Positions 5,755-13,812 of a stretch of DNA of 64,000 nucleotides are shown here, piece after piece. Position 1 is the first letter of the stretch. Every line of letters starts with the position of its first letter. The notes beneath the pieces are model-generated. The model saw nothing but the letters and a program-made list of their open reading frames with translations, searched no databases and had not been told where the DNA came from. The DNA lies in assembly GCF_900638585.1 (NCBI RefSeq), contig NZ_LR134523.1:460001-524000 (forward strand), in the 5' to 3' direction. Source of the stretch: Aedoeadaptatus ivorii. Its GTDB lineage: Bacteria > Bacillota > Clostridia > Tissierellales > Peptoniphilaceae. The position numbers and the translations under genes were made by a program.

Positions 5755-6858
5755 ATGAGAAAAAAATGGACCGCTCTGCTCCTCGCCCTCGCCATGCTGA
5801 TGACGGCATGCGGCGGCATAAAGCGGACGCCGGAGCGCTACGAGATTACTTTTTACGACACCTTCGACACGCTGGTTACCGCCATCGTCTATGCGGACAG
5901 CAAGGCCGAAGGCGACAAATATACCGAATTGCTCCATAAGAGATTTCAGGCGCTGCATAGAATCTATGACGGCTTTAATCGCTACGAAAATGTCAGCAAT
6001 CTAAAGGCGTTAAACGATGCGGCGGGAAAGGGAAAATTCAGCGTAGAACCTGAGCTGATGGATCTCTTGTCGCTGTCGATCGAACGCTATAAAGAATACG
6101 GCGAGACCAATATCGCATTCGGCGCCGTAACGGATATTTGGAAGACGTATCGCGATCGTTATACGACGGAAAAAGGCCACGACCACGATCGAGAAAAGAA
6201 CGCCGAATTGCCGCCTATGGACGCGCTACGACAGGCGGCCGCGCATACCAATATCGACGATATCGTGCTCTATCCCGAGGAGAACGCGGTGGAGATCAAG
6301 GACCCCGATCTCTCGATCGATTTGGGCGCCGTCGCCAAGGGCTATGCCACCGAAGTTGCCTGCCGAGAACTGGAAGAAGCAGGCTGTAAGGCGGCGCTGG
6401 TGAGTGCCGGCGGCAATGTAAAGCTGATCGGATCGGCGCCGGAGCCGAATCGCACCGCCTTCGGCATCGGCCTGCAGGACCCCGATGCAATCACCGAGAA
6501 GCGGCCGACGGCCCAAAATATGAAAGACGTCGTCTATGCCAATAATACCTCGGTGGTCACCAGTGGTGACTATCAGCGCTACTATACGGTGGACGGCAAG
6601 AATTACCACCACCTGATCGATCCGGACACGCTGATGCCGGCGGATCACTTCCGCGCGGTTTCGGTCATTTCCGAAGACAGCGGACTGGCGGATTTTTTGT
6701 CCACGACGGTGTTTTGTATGCCCTATGAAGAAGGCAGAAAGCTGGTGGATTCCCTAGACGGCGTCGAAGCCTATTGGATCTTAAAAGACGGCAGCATCGA
6801 ATTTACCGAAAGCCTTCGAGACAAGTTGAAGAGCGAGGGGGCGAGCAATGCGAAATAA
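5755..6858 (+). CDS. apbE: FAD:protein FMN transferase ApbE, lipoprotein
   Basis: A 367-residue lipoprotein. The start at 5755 (M-R-K-K-W) is preferred over 5731 because GGAG lies five bases upstream and the signal peptide begins there, with lipobox LMTAC. The ApbE domain follows: FYDTFDTLV, the DLGAVAKGYA Mg/FAD site, ALVSAGGNVKLIGS and TSGDYQRYY...HHLIDP. ApbE attaches FMN covalently to threonine of flavoproteins such as RnfD/RnfG or NqrC on the outer face of the membrane. No Rnf gene is in the window. Its stop overlaps the next gene by 11 bases. Confidence 0.94.
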   Translation: MRKKWTALLLALAMLMTACGGIKRTPERYEITFYDTFDTLVTAIVYADSKAEGDKYTELLHKRFQALHRIYDGFNRYENVSNLKALNDAAGKGKFSVEPELMDLLSLSIERYKEYGETNIAFGAVTDIWKTYRDRYTTEKGHDHDREKNAELPPMDALRQAAAHTNIDDIVLYPEENAVEIKDPDLSIDLGAVAKGYATEVACRELEEAGCKAALVSAGGNVKLIGSAPEPNRTAFGIGLQDPDAITEKRPTAQNMKDVVYANNTSVVTSGDYQRYYTVDGKNYHHLIDPDTLMPADHFRAVSVISEDSGLADFLSTTVFCMPYEEGRKLVDSLDGVEAYWILKDGSIEFTESLRDKLKSEGASNAK

Positions 6859-7348
6859 CGCCGTACTTTTTATCGTCGTGCACGCGCTGAATATCTTGAT
6901 GGTATCCGCATTTTTAATATTGCTCCATTTTGCGCCGCCCTTGGAGCGATTGTTTTATGGCAGTATGGTCTTTCGCCTGGCCATCGCCCTATTGCTCTTT
7001 GCGCCCTATGTGGCGGCGGGAAAGTTTTTTTCCAAAAGCCCCGTCACCGACACAATCGCCCTGTGGATCGTTCCGGCGATCCTCTGGGCGCTTCTGTTGG
7101 GGATCGCGTATTTTGGCGGGGGCGGGGAGACCTTTTTGCGCGGGCCCTTTCGTTCGCTATGGCGCCTGCCGGCGGATACGCTGATGCTGCCGCAGATCGC
7201 GGCGATTCGCCTGTTGCGCCTTGTGCCTAAGCCCGCGGTATATGCCGCATTTTGCGTCTTGCCCCAGACCGCAGCGCTATTTGTCGCAGCGGTGGATGAC
7301 TTGCGGTATCAGCGGCGCAAAAGACAGAGAATTCGAGAAAAATACTAG
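6848..7348 (+). CDS. Hypothetical multi-pass membrane protein
   Basis: A 166-residue hydrophobic protein of unknown family. By eye it has about three to four membrane helices (roughly 5-27, 38-58, 70-90, 133-151) and ends in a very basic cytoplasmic tail (RYQRRKRQRIREKY). The start overlaps apbE by 11 bases, so it is translated with apbE. It sits between ApbE and the phospholipid enzyme PgpA. No conserved catalytic motif is visible, and I do not assign a function. Confidence 0.75.
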   Translation: MRNNAVLFIVVHALNILMVSAFLILLHFAPPLERLFYGSMVFRLAIALLLFAPYVAAGKFFSKSPVTDTIALWIVPAILWALLLGIAYFGGGGETFLRGPFRSLWRLPADTLMLPQIAAIRLLRLVPKPAVYAAFCVLPQTAALFVAAVDDLRYQRRKRQRIREKY

Positions 7349-7361
7349 AATAGAGGAAAGC

Positions 7362-7877
7362 ATGTATAAATACGATATGGAAGAATTGTATCGCCTGGCG
7401 TTGGATGCCCTCGCCGAAAAAGGCGTGCGGGTGCAGGACATCGCCGAGATTGTTTATGAGTTGCAAAAAGACTATGTGCCCATTACAATAGAACTATGTG
7501 AAGAAAATGTTTTGGCGGTTTTGCGGAAGCGGGAGACGATCCACGCCGTATTGACGGCACTTGCCATCGACAAGGCGGTGGATCAAAAACTGTTCGACGA
7601 GCCGATTCGGACCATCATCGCCGAGGACGAAGGCCTCTACGGCATCGACGAAGTGATGAGTCTTTCGATCGTCAATGTCTACGGTTCTATCGGACTGACG
7701 AACTTCGGCTATTTGGACAAGAAGAAGATCGGCATTATCGACAAACTCGACAAGATGAAGGGCAAGGAAGTTACCACGTTCTCCGACGATATGGTGGCGG
7801 CCATCGCCGCGGCGGCGGCCGCTCGATTGGCGCACAGCAATCGCAACACAGAGGAGGCGGAAAATGCGCATGAATAA
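7362..7877 (+). CDS. pgpA: Phosphatidylglycerophosphatase A family protein (YutG-like)
   Basis: A 171-residue protein. The start at 7362 (M-Y-K-Y-D) has GAGG six bases upstream; a longer frame from 7221 overlaps the previous gene and lacks a site. Residues such as VQDIAEIVYELQ, EDEGLYGIDEVMSLSIVNVYGSIGLTNFGYLDK and FSDDMVAAIAAAAAAR are close to the Firmicute YutG/PgpA family, which dephosphorylates phosphatidylglycerophosphate to phosphatidylglycerol. The Firmicute branch is more soluble than E. coli PgpA. It overlaps the next gene by 14 bases. Confidence 0.88.
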   Translation: MYKYDMEELYRLALDALAEKGVRVQDIAEIVYELQKDYVPITIELCEENVLAVLRKRETIHAVLTALAIDKAVDQKLFDEPIRTIIAEDEGLYGIDEVMSLSIVNVYGSIGLTNFGYLDKKKIGIIDKLDKMKGKEVTTFSDDMVAAIAAAAAARLAHSNRNTEEAENAHE

Positions 7878-8660: not shown

Positions 8661-10172
8661 GTGAAAGAGAGTTATGTAAGTGTCATGAGTCTGCGCCGCC
8701 GCGTCTTTGCCGAGGTGGCCAGAATGGCTTTTACGGACAGACCCATCGAAGAGCTGGAAACTGCTGGATATCGGCTTTTTCCCGGTCAACCGGAAAACGA
8801 TCGCCAGGACATATTCCGTCAACGCGCCATCGCCGAAGAGATGATTCGGCTGGCCATGGGCATGGGGTTGAGAGATTACGGCGAATACATACCCGTCACC
8901 GACGGATTCGACAAGGTGGACGTAGACACCTCGATCTTCGAGACGCCCTTGGTCGATGTGATCAAATTCGCCTGTGAAGCCTGCCCCACCCGTGCCTTTG
9001 TGGTCACCGACAACTGCCGCAGATGTATGGCGCATCCCTGTACCAATGTCTGCCCGGTCAATGCCGTCAGCATCGGCAAGCACGGCGCGATTATCGACAA
9101 AGAAAAATGCGTCCGCTGCGGCCGCTGCAAAAACGCCTGCCCCTATAACGCCATCGTCGAATACGACCGCCCCTGTGCCTCGGTATGCGGGGTGGACGCC
9201 ATCGAAAGCGACGAATTGGACCGCGCCATTATCAACCACGACAAATGCGTCGGCTGCGGTCGCTGCGTGACCGAATGCCCCTGGGGCGCCATTGGCGATA
9301 AGACCATGATCTATCAGCTCGCCAAGGCATTAAAGAGCAAAAAACGCATCTACGCCATCCCCGCGCCGAGCTATATCGGCCAGTTCGGCGAATCCACCAC
9401 CCCCGCACAAGTTCGCGCGGCCATGAAACAATTGGGATTCGAGGATATGGTAGAGGTCGGATTGGGAGCGGATTACACCACCCTGCACGAAGCCAAGGAA
9501 TATCTGGAGCGCGTGCCCGAAAAGATTCCCTTTATGGGGACCAGCTGCTGCCACTCCTGGACGCTTTTGATCGACTACCGCTTCCCGGAACTCAAGGACT
9601 ATGTATCCGACTCCGGCTCGCCCATGCGCTATACCGCAGAACACATTAAGAAGGACGATCCCGAGGCCATGGTCTGCTTCGTCGGTCCCTGTACCTCCAA
9701 AAAGGTAGAGGCCGTCTCCGGCGATGTAAAGGAATATGTCGACTTCGTCATCACCTTTGAAGAGCTGATGGGCATGTTTGTCGCCATGGATATCGAGCCC
9801 GCTGAAATGGAAGTCACCGCCGAAGAAGAAGAGTCCTCTTCCTCCGCGCGGGGTTATGCCATCGCCGGCGGCGTCGCCGCAGCGGTCAAGGAAGTGGCGG
9901 AAAAGATCGATCCGGATCGCGACATTCAAATCGAAGGCGCCAATTCCCTGAAAGAGTGCATCAAGATGCTACAAATGGCAAAAGCCGGCCGAAAAGAGGG
10001 CCACCTGCTGGAAGGTATGGCCTGCGAAGGCGGATGTATCGCCGGTATGGGCACCATTGCCGCCACCAACCGCGTGCGCAAGTCCGTACAAAGCTATATG
10101 AAAGAGTCTGAATACAAGACGCCCTTGGAAAACAAGCTCGTCGACGACAGCCTCAAGGACTTTAGCAAATAA
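8661..10172 (+). CDS. [FeFe] hydrogenase catalytic subunit, short group-B-like form
   Basis: A 503-residue enzyme with GTG start and GGAGG five bases upstream. It interconverts protons and H2. The N-terminal half has ferredoxin-type cysteines: C119/C122/C127/C131, C150/C153/C156/C160 and C196/C199/C202/C206, with an extra C172/C176 pair. The H-cluster motifs follow: L1 TSCCHSW (294-300), L2 GPCTSKKVEA (342-351) and L3 EGMACEGGCIAG (451-462). TSCCxxW instead of TSCMPxW is characteristic of group B enzymes. A Ser/Glu-rich insert lies near 385-396. Maturation proteins are at 57.4-61.0 kb. A strong terminator follows. Confidence 0.93.
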   Translation: MKESYVSVMSLRRRVFAEVARMAFTDRPIEELETAGYRLFPGQPENDRQDIFRQRAIAEEMIRLAMGMGLRDYGEYIPVTDGFDKVDVDTSIFETPLVDVIKFACEACPTRAFVVTDNCRRCMAHPCTNVCPVNAVSIGKHGAIIDKEKCVRCGRCKNACPYNAIVEYDRPCASVCGVDAIESDELDRAIINHDKCVGCGRCVTECPWGAIGDKTMIYQLAKALKSKKRIYAIPAPSYIGQFGESTTPAQVRAAMKQLGFEDMVEVGLGADYTTLHEAKEYLERVPEKIPFMGTSCCHSWTLLIDYRFPELKDYVSDSGSPMRYTAEHIKKDDPEAMVCFVGPCTSKKVEAVSGDVKEYVDFVITFEELMGMFVAMDIEPAEMEVTAEEEESSSSARGYAIAGGVAAAVKEVAEKIDPDRDIQIEGANSLKECIKMLQMAKAGRKEGHLLEGMACEGGCIAGMGTIAATNRVRKSVQSYMKESEYKTPLENKLVDDSLKDFSK

Positions 10173-10185
10173 AGCGAAAACATCC

Positions 10186-10228
10186 AAAAATGAGTAAGTA
10201 CGAAATTCCGTACTTACTCATTTTTTTT
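10186..10228 (+). terminator. Strong bidirectional terminator between hydrogenase gene and HEPN/nuclease gene
   Basis: A perfect 17-bp stem (AAAAATGAGTAAGTACG and its complement) with a six-base loop is flanked by A5 and T8 runs, so it works from both sides. The TGA stop of the minus-strand gene lies inside the stem. Confidence 0.93.
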
Positions 10229-11192
10229 GGGAGCGCGCCTCGCCGTTGCCCTTCGCCATCTCGCGGCGGATGCGGCCGAGTACGTCGTCTTTTGCCATCA
10301 AAGATTTCAGATTGTCCCGGTCCAAGAGAAAGATCTTTTCTCGGCGCAGCGTCGCCTTTGCTCGCGAGTCCAAGACGGCGGAGTCCATCAAGAGCACCTT
10401 CTCTTCTTTTACCGAGACGGGGAAGTGGGAGAGAATGCCTTCTAAATGTTCGGGACCGGCGATCCCCTCGAAGTCGATCTTTTTAATCTCGACGGCATAC
10501 ACCACGCCGTCTTTTTGCATGGAAAAATCGAAGGGGAGCGCGGGATTTTTGACGTCGGTCTCGAGGATTTCGTATCCGCATTTTGCAAACGCTACCTGGG
10601 CGAGCTTTTCGTGGGTGAGCTCCTGCTCCAAGAGCGCGAGCGTCTGTACCAAGTGGAGCGGATCGAGTTTGATAATGGCGGTACAGCCATAGGTTTCATT
10701 TTCTTTGGGGATGTGGCGCACGTCGAAGGCCATAATGCGATCGTCGATCACCGTAAAAAAACCGTGGGCGATGGCGTTTCGCATATGCCGGACCAACGCC
10801 GAGGTCTTGGTCTCGTTGTCGCCGGTGGTGAGGATGATCTTTTGGCAATTGGTGCAGATCTTTTCCATATAGTAGTCGACGATGTCGTCGTCGATGTATT
10901 CCAGCACCAGCACGTCTTCCTTTCTGAGATGCAGGGTATCGACAATCATGCTGAAGCTAAAGTCTTCGTAGAGCTTTTCTTCGATCAGAATATTCGATGC
11001 CGATTGAAACGAATTGATATTCGGCACATACCACAACAGATACTCCAGCGCCTCGGTGATCTCCGGGGCGAGGGGCAAGGGCCGGGGCCGATGTAAAAGA
11101 GAGTAGGGGCGGGCGTTGTCCGCGTCGCAGTCGTATTGAAATGTACGAAAAGACGGCAAGTGGCCGTTTCGTTTGCCTTTGGTTCGATTCAT
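10218..11192 (-). CDS. HEPN-like plus PD-(D/E)xK nuclease-like protein, possible defence or RNA/DNA nuclease
   Basis: A 324-residue protein I cannot match to a named family. The middle has R138-N-A-I-A-H143, an Rx4H motif embedded in LVRHMRNAIAHGFF, as in HEPN ribonucleases. The C-terminal third has D222 followed by 12 residues and E235-I-K237 (FDFSMQKDGVVYAVEIKK), the D-x12-ExK layout of Mrr-like PD-(D/E)xK nucleases, then predicted alternating strands and helices (KVLLMDSAVLD, KIFLLDRDNLKSLM). A CTNC pair is at 113-116. The N-terminus is basic. It is a single gene with its own promoter, divergent from rplM. Nuclease activity is inference. Confidence 0.65.
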   Translation of the reverse strand: MNRTKGKRNGHLPSFRTFQYDCDADNARPYSLLHRPRPLPLAPEITEALEYLLWYVPNINSFQSASNILIEEKLYEDFSFSMIVDTLHLRKEDVLVLEYIDDDIVDYYMEKICTNCQKIILTTGDNETKTSALVRHMRNAIAHGFFTVIDDRIMAFDVRHIPKENETYGCTAIIKLDPLHLVQTLALLEQELTHEKLAQVAFAKCGYEILETDVKNPALPFDFSMQKDGVVYAVEIKKIDFEGIAGPEHLEGILSHFPVSVKEEKVLLMDSAVLDSRAKATLRREKIFLLDRDNLKSLMAKDDVLGRIRREMAKGNGEARSQKK

Positions 11193-11288: not shown

Positions 11289-11317
11289 TTGACAAGGACC
11301 CAAAATTCAGCTACAAT
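11289..11317 (+). promoter_or_regulatory. Promoter of rplM-rpsI
   Basis: A consensus -35 TTGACA and -10 TACAAT are separated by 17 bases, about 70 bases before the rplM start. The leader of roughly 60 nt may carry an L13 autoregulatory structure, but I could not recognise one. Confidence 0.85.
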
Positions 11318-11386: not shown

Positions 11387-11815
11387 ATGAAGACAACTAT
11401 GGCGAAAGCCAATGAAGTAGATAGAAAATGGTACGTCATCGACGCCGAAGGCAAGGTCCTCGGTCGTCTGGCAACCGAAATCGCTAACATCCTTCGCGGC
11501 AAGAACAAGCCCATCTATACCCCGCACGTGGACACGGGAGATTTCGTAATCGTCATCAATGCGGAAAAGATTAAGATGACGGGCAACAAATGGAACGACA
11601 AGGTATACGACTACCACACCGGTTATCCGGGCGGACGTCGTGAAGTCGCTTACAGCGAAATCCGCGAAAAGCACCCCGAGCGCGTGATCGAATACGCGGT
11701 GAAGGGCATGCTTCCCAAGAGCCGCTTGGGCCGCTCCATGTTCCGCAAACTGAAGGTCTATGCGGGCAACGAGCATCCCCACGCAGCACAACAGCCGGAA
11801 GCATACGAAGTATAA
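11387..11815 (+). CDS. rplM: 50S ribosomal protein L13
   Basis: A 142-residue ribosomal protein with a perfect AGGAGGT before the ATG. Landmarks are [19 protein letters not shown], the [19 protein letters not shown] segment and [23 protein letters not shown]13 is an early assembly protein of the large subunit. An alternative start four codons in (M-A-K-A-N) is possible, but the ribosome binding site spacing favours 11387. It is followed 16 bases later by rpsI, the near-universal pairing. Confidence 0.97.
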
Positions 11816-11831
11816 GGGAAGGGTGATTTAG

Positions 11832-12221
11832 ATGGCAGAACAATACAGAGCAACAGGTAGAAGAAAGACGTCCGTAGCCCAAGTGCGTCTCCTTTCCGGT
11901 AGCGGAAAGTTCATCGTCAACGGTCGCGACATCCAAGATTTCTTCGGATTCGAAACCTTGCGCATCGTCGCAAAATCTCCCCTGGAGATCACCGAAACCG
12001 AAGGCAACTATGATGTCATCGTCCGCGTAAAAGGCGGCGGCTATACGGGACAAGCCGGTGCCATTCGTCAAGGCATTGCAAGAGCGTTGGTCGAAGCGGA
12101 CGGCGAATTGCGCCCCATCCTCAAAAAAGCGGGCTTCTTGACCCGTGACCCGAGAATGAAGGAACGTAAAAAATACGGCTTCAAAAAAGCGAGAAAGTCT
12201 CCCCAATTCTCCAAGCGTTAA
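11832..12221 (+). CDS. rpsI: 30S ribosomal protein S9
   Basis: A 129-residue protein with N-terminal [16 protein letters not shown] and the highly basic C-terminus ending [12 protein letters not shown], whose last residues reach the ribosomal P site. [14 protein letters not shown] and the [15 protein letters not shown] segment confirm the family. It is the second and last gene of the rplM operon and is closed by a strong terminator. Confidence 0.97.
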
Positions 12222-12338: not shown

Positions 12339-13202
12339 CTACTCGAGGGGCCGAAGGTCCCGGTAGATGGCGAGGAGCTCGCCCTTGTCGGCGTCTTTTG
12401 CCGTCACACCCAAGAGAATGCCGTCTCGTTCGGCGTAGAGGCTCGATCCCTGCACAATCACTCGAATGCCGTCGATGATGTGGGTTTCGATGGGTTCCTC
12501 GCCGCCGATTTCATAGCCGGCGCCGGGGATGTCGCGCCGCTGGTCGATATAGATCTCCTTGCCGTCTTTCGTCTTATAGTGAAAGGCGACGTAGTCGGTT
12601 TTTGTATCGTCTGTCGCGTATACGTCGGCATACTCATAGGGGTAGCGCTCTGATAAGACCAGGGGCGTAAAAGTCAGTCGATCGGCCACGGAAGGGATCG
12701 GTTCATAGACGCTGAAGTCGATGTCGTCGGTCTCTTCTTCTAAGACGAATGTCGCCTGGCCGGTTGCATCGTCGAACTCGATGTGTTCGATCTCTTTTCC
12801 CTCTCGGGTAAAGAGCGGTTCCATTTTATCGAGGACCGTCGCATCGGTAATTTCGCGGCCGTCCCGGTCGTAGAGCTTACCCTTTAAGGTTTCGGGCAGG
12901 GTTCTCTTCGACAGATGCGCGTTCGCCTTTTCCTCGTGGACGACGATACGGTTCGTGGGCGTTGCCACCTGCCGTATCGTCTCAACGATGCTTTCTCCGA
13001 AGCCCGTAAAGGGTAAGGTAAAGACCAAGAGCGCGGCGGCGGCCGCAATGGCGGGTGTTGTGCGGCGCCGCGCCCGGTTTCTTATGCGGCGGCGTACCGC
13101 TTCTTTGTCCCGTGCATCGGGCGCATAGAGGGTTTTTAATTGCGCGGTCCACTCTTCTTCCGCCCGAAAATTCGAAGACTGCAAATCTTTAGGATTCTTC
13201 AT
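12339..13202 (-). CDS. Putative anti-sigma / DUF4367-like membrane protein
   Basis: A 287-residue protein with a cytoplasmic N-terminus (about 1-48, rich in Arg near 37-47), one membrane helix (about 49-70) and a large outside domain. The C-terminal part (ETHIIDGIRVIVQGSSLYAERDG...AIYRDL) resembles DUF4367, a domain common in proteins encoded with ECF sigma factors. Its start overlaps the sigma gene by 14 bases, so it is the likely negative regulator or sensor for that sigma factor. No zinc-binding HxxxCxxC anti-sigma motif is visible, so the way it would hold the sigma is unknown. Confidence 0.78.
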   Translation of the reverse strand: MKNPKDLQSSNFRAEEEWTAQLKTLYAPDARDKEAVRRRIRNRARRRTTPAIAAAAALLVFTLPFTGFGESIVETIRQVATPTNRIVVHEEKANAHLSKRTLPETLKGKLYDRDGREITDATVLDKMEPLFTREGKEIEHIEFDDATGQATFVLEEETDDIDFSVYEPIPSVADRLTFTPLVLSERYPYEYADVYATDDTKTDYVAFHYKTKDGKEIYIDQRRDIPGAGYEIGGEEPIETHIIDGIRVIVQGSSLYAERDGILLGVTAKDADKGELLAIYRDLRPLE

Positions 13203-13740
13203 AATATGCCTCCATCTCGCGTTGAATTTTTTTCAAAAGTCGGTGCAGTAGGACGCCCACATGGTTCGGCGTCAGCGCCATCAACGCCGCAATGTCCGCG
13301 TTGGAAAGCTCTGCGGCGAATTTATAGCTCAGGAGCAGTTGATCCCGCTCGCTTTGGCGTCGAATGATCTTTCGCAAATGCTCGTGTTCTTCCGCTCGCT
13401 CGATCCGATCTTCCACCCGTTCCTCGGACGGGAGAATGTGGATCAGATTTTCCAGCGGCAGCCACTTTCTGCGAGCCTGTCTTCGATAGTAGTCGTATAG
13501 GGTGTTTCTCGCGATGGAAAAAATCCAAACCTCAAAGCGGCCTTTTGCCGCATCGTATGCGGAGAAATTCGTATATACTTTTTGAAAGATATCTGCGGTT
13601 ACATCCCGCACCGATTCTCTATCCGCCAAGCGGTAGGCGACGAATCGAAAGATCCGATCGAAATACGCTTCGTAGATCTCCTCGAAATTCGCCGTCTCCT
13701 CCCAAGCGGAAACGGAATCGATTCTTTCCGTTCTTTCCAA
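13189..13740 (-). CDS. ECF-type RNA polymerase sigma factor
   Basis: A 183-residue sigma factor. I place the start at the TTG at 13740, eight bases after AAGGAGG; the GTG at 13749 sits on top of that site and is unlikely. Region 2 spans FDRIFRFVAYRLADRESVRDVTAD with WIFSIARNTLYDYYRR, and region 4 spans ELSNADIAALMALTPNHVGVLLHRLLKK. It lacks region 3, as expected for group 4 sigma factors. The 3' end overlaps the anti-sigma-like gene. The stimulus cannot be read from the sequence. Confidence 0.9.
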   Translation of the reverse strand: MERTERIDSVSAWEETANFEEIYEAYFDRIFRFVAYRLADRESVRDVTADIFQKVYTNFSAYDAAKGRFEVWIFSIARNTLYDYYRRQARRKWLPLENLIHILPSEERVEDRIERAEEHEHLRKIIRRQSERDQLLLSYKFAAELSNADIAALMALTPNHVGVLLHRLLKKIQREMEAYYEES

Positions 13741-13812
13741 TAGGCTCACCTCCTTGGCGCCGTATCTTTCATAGAGTAAATACGCAGGTAGGGCTAAAAT
13801 ATTACAAAGAAA

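Follow-up and report, generated by a model that had tools for sequence, protein, structure and literature searches.

The window analyzed here is a stretch of 64,000 nucleotides from Aedoeadaptatus ivorii (contig NZ_LR134523.1, positions 460,001 to 524,000). A gene on its minus strand encodes a protein in which a probable HEPN-type domain is joined to a domain predicted to have a restriction-endonuclease (REase) fold; this gene and the features around it are listed in Table 1. The first-pass annotation had singled out the open reading frame (ORF) at 10218-11192 for the motifs R138-N-A-I-A-H143 and D222-x12-E235-I-K237, and both are present in it at those residues.

Table 1. Features of the HEPN-REase locus, in window positions
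Feature	Position	Strand	Remarks
Ferredoxin-type hydrogenase-like gene (left neighbor)	8661-10172	+	ORF reading, without family scan
Inverted repeat, two 20-base arms, A and T runs	10186-10225		Probable two-way terminator
HEPN-REase fusion gene	10218..11192	-	324 aa, ATG start; ORF from 11192 to 10218
REase-fold domain, about residues 190-312	10257..10625	-	VIA-align, Mrr_cat
E235-I236-K237, PD-(D/E)xK site	10482..10490	-	E 49/58, K 40/58
D222, PD-(D/E)xK site	10527..10529	-	51 D + 7 E among 58
HEPN-type domain (probable), about residues 28-189	10626..11111	-	PF18736 similarity
Rx4H motif R138-N-A-I-A-H143	10764..10781	-	R138, N139, A142, H143 58/58
Family signature L53-W-Y-V-P-N-I-N-S-F-Q-S64	11001..11036	-	8/12 residues invariant
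rplM-rpsI (right neighbor)	11387-12221	+	ORF reading, without family scan

Judged by position only, the HEPN-REase gene forms a single-gene transcription unit. Its stop codon (10218-10220) falls within the inverted repeat at 10186-10225, which is probably a two-way terminator common to the convergent hydrogenase-like and HEPN-REase genes. The sole promoter-like match of the region, TTGACA-17-TACAAT at 11289-11317, is directed towards rplM and is within chance, with one match observed and 1.7 expected in shuffled sequence; none was found for the HEPN-REase gene in the region scanned. By ORF reading, no defense, restriction, BREX, or modification gene adjoins the gene, which bears out its earlier description as a single gene among housekeeping genes. 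We rejected an origin from a mobile element in this genome: no homolog was found in phages, plasmids (E ≤ 0.1), or viral contigs, and the GC content over the gene (0.50 to 0.54 in 1-kb windows) is within the local range (0.49 to 0.63 over 4 to 18 kb of the window). After rpsI, on the minus strand at 12339-13749, lies a fast-evolving pair of genes (41 to 49% identity within the genus) read as an ECF-type sigma factor and a DUF4179-like partner.

The two halves of the protein and their known relatives

A scan of genome contigs yielded a family set of 65 loci, 57 of which are full length and were aligned with the window protein to give 58 rows. Left out of these rows were three broken or truncated loci (L029, L037, and L071) and five loci encoding HEPN-only proteins of 168 to 189 aa (L084 and L086 to L089). 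When the window protein was shuffled 2000 times, R....H appeared in 43.9% of the shuffles, which is near chance for one sequence, and a loose D.{6,30}[DE].K appeared in 97.2%; RN..AHG appeared in none. Because occurrence in a single sequence is near chance, the motifs are significant through their conservation across the 58 full-length sequences, in all of which R138, N139, A142, H143, and G144 are identical. A second stretch, the family signature L53-S64, has L53, W54, Y55, V56, P57, I59, S61, and Q63 in 58/58 sequences and varies at N58 (41/58), N60 (25/58), F62 (7/58), and S64 (51/58). The HEPN-only proteins carry a reduced form of this signature.

HEPN proteins with an Rx4H motif are typically RNases, usually active as dimers. 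The assignment of the N-terminal half as a probable HEPN-type domain rests on sequence, since the structure searches gave no match. The HEPN model PF18736 scored 19.5 bits against the window protein (E = 8.5e-4), below the Pfam cutoff of 26.6, but it was matched at E ≤ 1 by 21 of the 22 members of alignment A1 and at E ≤ 0.1 by 62 of the 63 HEPN halves in alignment A4, with a best value of 2.3e-8. Other HEPN models matched subsets of A4 (RiboL-PSP, 20; MAE_28990, 17; HepT-like, 4). Profile comparison with hhalign joined the HEPN halves to the HEPN-only homologs (E = 5.5e-18), one of which, L084, passes the PF18736 cutoff (27.1 versus 26.6 bits). Four independent PF18736 proteins matched the family profile with a probability of 87, over only 36 columns around the motif. 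PF18736 itself is rare, being found at E ≤ 1e-5 in 1/291 class genomes, 4/398 phylum-sample genomes, and 0/14 controls; no such match was found in the window genome.

AlphaFold2 modeled residues 1 to 190 with a pLDDT of 91.5 and a pTM of 0.89 as a helical domain with inserted strands, and helix 129-142 stops just short of H143 both in this model and in the full-length one. Searches of the PDB with this half found no fold match (Foldseek best E, 1.1; 0/998 chains with Z ≥ 2), and no HEPN protein was among the PDB sequence or profile matches. Profile matches to interferon-inducible GTPases (E = 0.02 to 0.09) and to COMMD3 (0.77) were judged to be due to chance. The missing fold match and the restriction of the PF18736-protein profile match to 36 columns would be expected if this half were a HEPN-like domain with a binding function and no RNase activity, but the motif R, N, and H are present in 58/58 sequences and we consider such a domain very unlikely.

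The C-terminal half has, in the model, a restriction-endonuclease fold. AlphaFold2 modeled the full protein from the 58-row alignment with a pLDDT of 88.6 and a pTM of 0.82. VIA-align superposed residues 189 to 312 on Cdn1 (8z4i; Z = 10.1, 116 residues, root mean square deviation [rmsd] 2.8) and on AF1548 (1y88; Z = 9.8, 111 residues, rmsd 3.1), with further matches to the REase folds of Can2, XisH-type proteins, FokI, and others; 8 to 10 rows reached Z ≥ 8, and values below 8 were taken as possibly reflecting a common arrangement. D222, E235, and K237 are on strands of this fold. Foldseek found nothing in the PDB at E ≤ 0.001 for the full-length model (best, 3.8e-3) and six matches at that threshold in BFVD, four named restriction endonuclease and two unnamed. 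The Pfam model Mrr_cat (PF04471) gave 15.3 bits for the window protein, below its cutoff of 21, and matched 14 of the 22 A1 members at E ≤ 1 (best, 2.7e-9). A HEPN-type motif and an REase fold in one protein, as first proposed, are thus supported by a motif present in 58/58 sequences and a fold match at Z = 10.1; of the two folds, the REase fold was recovered (Z = 10.1 and 9.8) and the HEPN fold was not (0/998 chains with Z ≥ 2).

As the first-pass annotation had it, the full-length protein belongs to no named family in Pfam, PADLOC, NCBIfam, or PHROGs. No PADLOC family matched the window protein at E ≤ 0.01 (best, 0.025). The 58 relatives matched seven PADLOC models at that threshold, with one to six members each, including RTasHEPN (five members), CARF_PDDEXK_TM (five members), and, as the best match (3.9e-7, one member), the Mrr-like nuclease ZorD. 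We read these as matches to the two folds of the protein and not as family membership.

HEPN-REase fusions are already known in general; for this fusion family, no record was found. The available text of PMC3710099 (Anantharaman et al. 2013) reports such fusions on several independent occasions and names DUF4145-REase, EC042_2821, and HEPN-M with a Holliday-resolvase-like REase. These share the general architecture of the window protein, HEPN and REase fold in one chain, but belong to other HEPN families, some with extra domains; the sequence comparison with them consisted of Pfam scans. The pEK499_p136 family (PF18736), which is described there in operons with R-M, ART, Macro, and Pgl genes, has the Rx4H motif in common with the window family. 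The HEPN-only relative L084 is over the Pfam cutoff for pEK499_p136, whereas the window protein is under it, with a match limited to the motif region; the window family also adds an REase fusion, which the available part of PMC3710099 does not list for pEK499_p136.

On the nuclease side, residues 189 to 312 share their fold (Z = 8 to 10) and the placement of D..E.K with Mrr_cat and PD-(D/E)xK nucleases, Cdn1, Can2, and AF1548 (1y88), although the catalytic residues are altered in many relatives of the window protein. Cdn1 and Can2 are CARF-REase effectors; the window protein has no CARF model in Pfam and carries its HEPN half in the place of CARF, while five of the 58 relatives match at least part of the PADLOC CARF-PDDEXK model. 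Tha likewise combines a length of about 300 aa with an Rx4H HEPN domain (RNSIMH) in one protein and has been experimentally shown to be an anti-phage RNase; according to the accessible portions of PMC11087260, Tha differs in being phage encoded, with a C-terminal HEPN domain and no discernible N-terminal domain. No publication on the window family was found among the matches listed, in a search with subscription literature mostly outside it.

Unequal conservation of the two motifs

The two motifs of the protein have had opposite fates, and this, in a near-core gene, is a greater surprise than the motifs themselves. All 23 invariant columns of the 58 sequences fall within residues 1 to 189, and none falls within residues 190 to 324. 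The D222 column contains 51 D and 7 E; the E235 column, 49 E, 8 D, and 1 K; and the K237 column, 40 K, 14 R, 2 L, 1 H, and 1 I. The proposed conservation of five catalytic residues therefore held for R138 and H143 (58/58) and failed for D222 (51/58), E235 (49/58), and K237 (40/58). With D, E/D, and K scored as intact and anything else as altered, the REase site is intact in 32/58 sequences (DEK, 31; DDK, 1) and altered in 26/58 (DER, 14; EDK, 7; DEL, 2; DEI, 1; DEH, 1; DKK, 1). Catalysis may survive a change from K to R or an exchange of E and D.

On the family tree, the state of this site changes at least five times. The altered rows all belong to a single supported group of Anaerococcus and some Peptoniphilus sequences, in which 5 of the 31 rows are intact; with intact rows nested among altered ones, some of the site changes may be reversals. 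The D..(E/D).K pattern is intact throughout the window's clade with the Urinicoccus rows (10/10) and in four outlier rows, which sit on long branches. This distribution, together with the position of D222, E235, and K237 on strands of the REase fold, is what would be expected if the protein of the window's clade were a dual nuclease, with HEPN cutting RNA and PD-(D/E)xK cutting DNA, that acts as a one-protein abortive or restriction system. The alteration of the catalytic residues in 26/58 relatives argues against such a system, as does the fact that no modification gene that would protect self DNA was seen beside the window gene, and we regard it as improbable. The original two-nuclease proposal accordingly does not extend across the family and is possible at most in some clades, including that of the window.

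Both halves are under purifying selection. In 14 of 15 pairs, omega was 0.035 to 0.123 for the HEPN half and 0.034 to 0.140 for the REase half, with no rise in pairs with altered sites; the 15th pair was saturated. For 6 of the 14 pairs, dS was above 1 in one or both halves, and the values of those six are rough. Low omega despite altered sites suggests that the REase-fold domain has been retained for more than canonical cutting, at least in the 31-row group.

Distribution and synteny

The HEPN-REase family is real, unnamed, and largely lineage-restricted. Its loci are mainly in Aedoeadaptatus, Peptoniphilus, Anaerococcus, and Urinicoccus, with others in Bacillus badius (L062), Butyrivibrio (L082), a Clostridium metagenome-assembled genome (MAG) (L083), an uncultured Clostridia MAG (L055), and elsewhere. 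At E ≤ 1e-5, 68 of the 130 genomes of the bacterial family have a match, one of which (G048) covers only part of the REase half and contains stops, and 62 have none. The 4 matches among 398 genomes of the phylum sample are the window genome, one genome of the same family, and two partial matches. Within genera, matches were found in 31/31 genomes of the Anaerococcus group g24, which was judged to include the A. provencensis and A. vaginimassiliensis contigs, the latter with a truncated copy; in 12/14 of the Peptoniphilus group g22, in which P. grossensis has one broken copy and a second, intact one; and in 7/8 of the window's genus, in which the G002 copy is broken near its start. In another genome of this genus, G001, rplM and rpsI are present (92% and 83%), and the HEPN-REase gene is absent both from the 10 kb read there and genome-wide.

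In nine loci, as in the window, the HEPN-REase gene adjoins a member of the rplM gene cluster (c11); these are in Aedoeadaptatus, Peptoniphilus sp. KCTC 25270, and two Urinicoccus-type genomes. The Urinicoccus-type proteins are only 37 to 39% identical to the window protein, and the rplM-side site they share with it is therefore old. Loci of the P. harei group and of Anaerococcus have recurrent neighbors of their own, and several other Peptoniphilus loci have none of the rplM, P. harei-group, or Anaerococcus neighbors. In 25 of the 25 Anaerococcus loci compared, a gene of cluster c4 is first or second after the HEPN-REase gene; the one c4 gene scanned matched LMBR1 below the cutoff, and c4 is absent from this place in the window's genus. 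No neighbor cluster is common to all of the main syntenic contexts. Within the genus, the HEPN-REase protein shows 66 to 69% identity, compared with 67 to 68% for ribE, 59 to 60% for ribD, 57 to 63% for apbE, 81 to 84% for the hydrogenase-like protein, and 84 to 91% for rplM.

The gene is thus near-core and syntenic in the genus, in mostly conserved housekeeping surroundings, and its earlier description as an accessory gene has to be replaced. We also rejected a defense-island setting in the main Peptoniphilaceae groups: the neighbors are constant within groups, and the seven that were scanned (one each in L032, L042, L058, and L060 and three in L043) include no restriction gene. A Macro-domain gene was dismissed as an operon partner; it overlaps the HEPN-REase gene in L060 and is separated from it, or not its next neighbor, in the other Anaerococcus loci.

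A gene with matches in 31/31 g24, 12/14 g22, and 7/8 genomes of the window's genus, a few of them broken, at the same rplM-side site from Aedoeadaptatus to Urinicoccus, with low omega and ordinary divergence (66 to 69%, versus 59 to 60% for ribD and 81 to 84% for the hydrogenase-like protein), could encode a domesticated housekeeping or stress endoribonuclease. Its HEPN domain would cut a specific cellular RNA in tRNA or rRNA processing or turnover, the REase fold would be an RNA- or DNA-binding scaffold, and the protein would have no present role in defense. Such an enzyme fits poorly with the lack of a match in 62/130 family genomes and in G001 of the window's own genus, with the existence of broken copies, and with the restriction genes that adjoin some divergent members; we consider it a serious candidate but on balance unlikely. 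HEPN RNases are also common as toxins (HepT/MntA), and the protein could be a toxin in a toxin-antitoxin pair, with either an unlinked antitoxin or the REase-fold domain as antitoxin in cis. A pair of this kind is scarcely probable, given that the main syntenic contexts have no neighbor cluster in common.

Defense genes near divergent relatives and a model for the protein

Restriction- or defense-type genes adjoin 3 of the 8 divergent or outlier fusion loci scanned and not the other 5, a proportion with no background rate for comparison; the divergent loci L055 and L105 are outside this count. In L083, the gene immediately before the fusion encodes a Type I HsdR, and HsdS lies four genes upstream. 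In L062, the gene upstream of the fusion encodes an ATPase that matches AriA, GajA, and Old, and an AIPR/AbiU-like gene lies downstream on the opposite strand. The L106 fusion adjoins a GmrSD-type gene, and in L107 a single gene separates the fusion from a TraG-type conjugation gene. No restriction gene was found among the few neighbors scanned of L082, L102, L103, and L104.

Among the HEPN-only relatives, the L084 gene (9935-10450) is inside a BREX operon, with BrxA, BrxB, BrxC, and an Eco57I-type methylase frame upstream and a PglX-end frame and a PglZ gene downstream, and L086 is surrounded by the same gene clusters. No restriction or BREX genes were found among the scanned neighbors of L087 and L088, and L089 has gene clusters in common with L088. 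L116 adjoins genes that were read as HsdS. The available text of PMC12839542 interprets the HEPN genes of BREX loci as backup suicidal effectors; L084 resembles these auxiliary genes in its location, whereas the window gene is not beside such genes. In L108, from a genome of another family, a 133-aa REase-like gene (6132-6533), with REase matches below the Pfam cutoffs, and a PF18736 HEPN gene (6950-7501), which passes its cutoff, are separate genes about 0.4 kb apart. Proximity to restriction or BREX genes was seen for some divergent or HEPN-only relatives and not among the seven neighbors scanned in the main groups.

What we observe is a two-domain family with unequal conservation, purifying selection, synteny, and the relatives' neighbors described above; such support as a defense role has is indirect and comes from the divergent or HEPN-only relatives beside restriction or BREX genes. 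The invariance of the HEPN site and the retention of a catalytically variable REase fold suggest that HEPN is the output and that the REase fold is a sensor or targeting part with optional catalysis. We tentatively favor, at somewhat under an even chance, a solitary HEPN RNase that is controlled by a nucleic acid-binding REase-fold module, has its ancestry in defense, and has been inherited mostly vertically in Peptoniphilaceae. The N-terminal HEPN domain would probably act as an endoribonuclease that needs no metal, with the R138/H143 sites of two subunits brought together in a dimer. Binding of nucleic acid, with DNA as the likeliest target, would fall to the REase-fold domain, which in the window's clade might cut its target as well. 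Recognition by this domain would release the HEPN RNase, which would then cut cellular or phage RNA and stop growth or infection. The gene may have descended from restriction- or BREX-associated HEPN modules to become a mostly vertical chromosomal gene in Peptoniphilaceae.

In favor of this RNase controlled by an REase-fold module, we count the invariant HEPN motif, the PF18736 matches, the REase fold, altered sites with low omega, the HEPN-only homologs, the restriction and BREX neighbors of relatives, the L108 gene pair, and the precedent of Tha. Against it, we count the HEPN half without a fold match, the PF18736 similarity over 36 columns only, a near-core syntenic gene unlike a typical defense gene, the lack of phage, plasmid, or viral homologs, a K-to-R change or E/D swap that is perhaps still catalytic, and the 5/8 divergent loci with no adjoining restriction gene. 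In a more specific version, which we think unlikely, a former defense nuclease has become a fixed cellular RNase with a fully constrained HEPN site, and its REase fold, with a repeatedly changed site, is now a nucleic acid sensor that licenses the RNase. If so, one bacterial family would contain the natural steps that lead from a dual nuclease to a sensor-RNase.

Solitary near-core genes of the HEPN-REase type are missed by searches based on defense islands. The family is also a natural set of variants, with REase sites that are intact (DEK and DDK), swapped (EDK), or altered (DER, DEL, DEI, DEH, and DKK), which allows a direct test of the division of labor between RNase and restriction fold.

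Some genomes carry a second copy. Three Anaerococcus-group genomes have a second, divergent HEPN-REase gene (L103, L104, and L105), with a thioesterase-type gene closely upstream in L103 and L104. In G553, one copy (L110) is broken into two frames, and the divergent second copy, L106, by the GmrSD-type gene, is intact.
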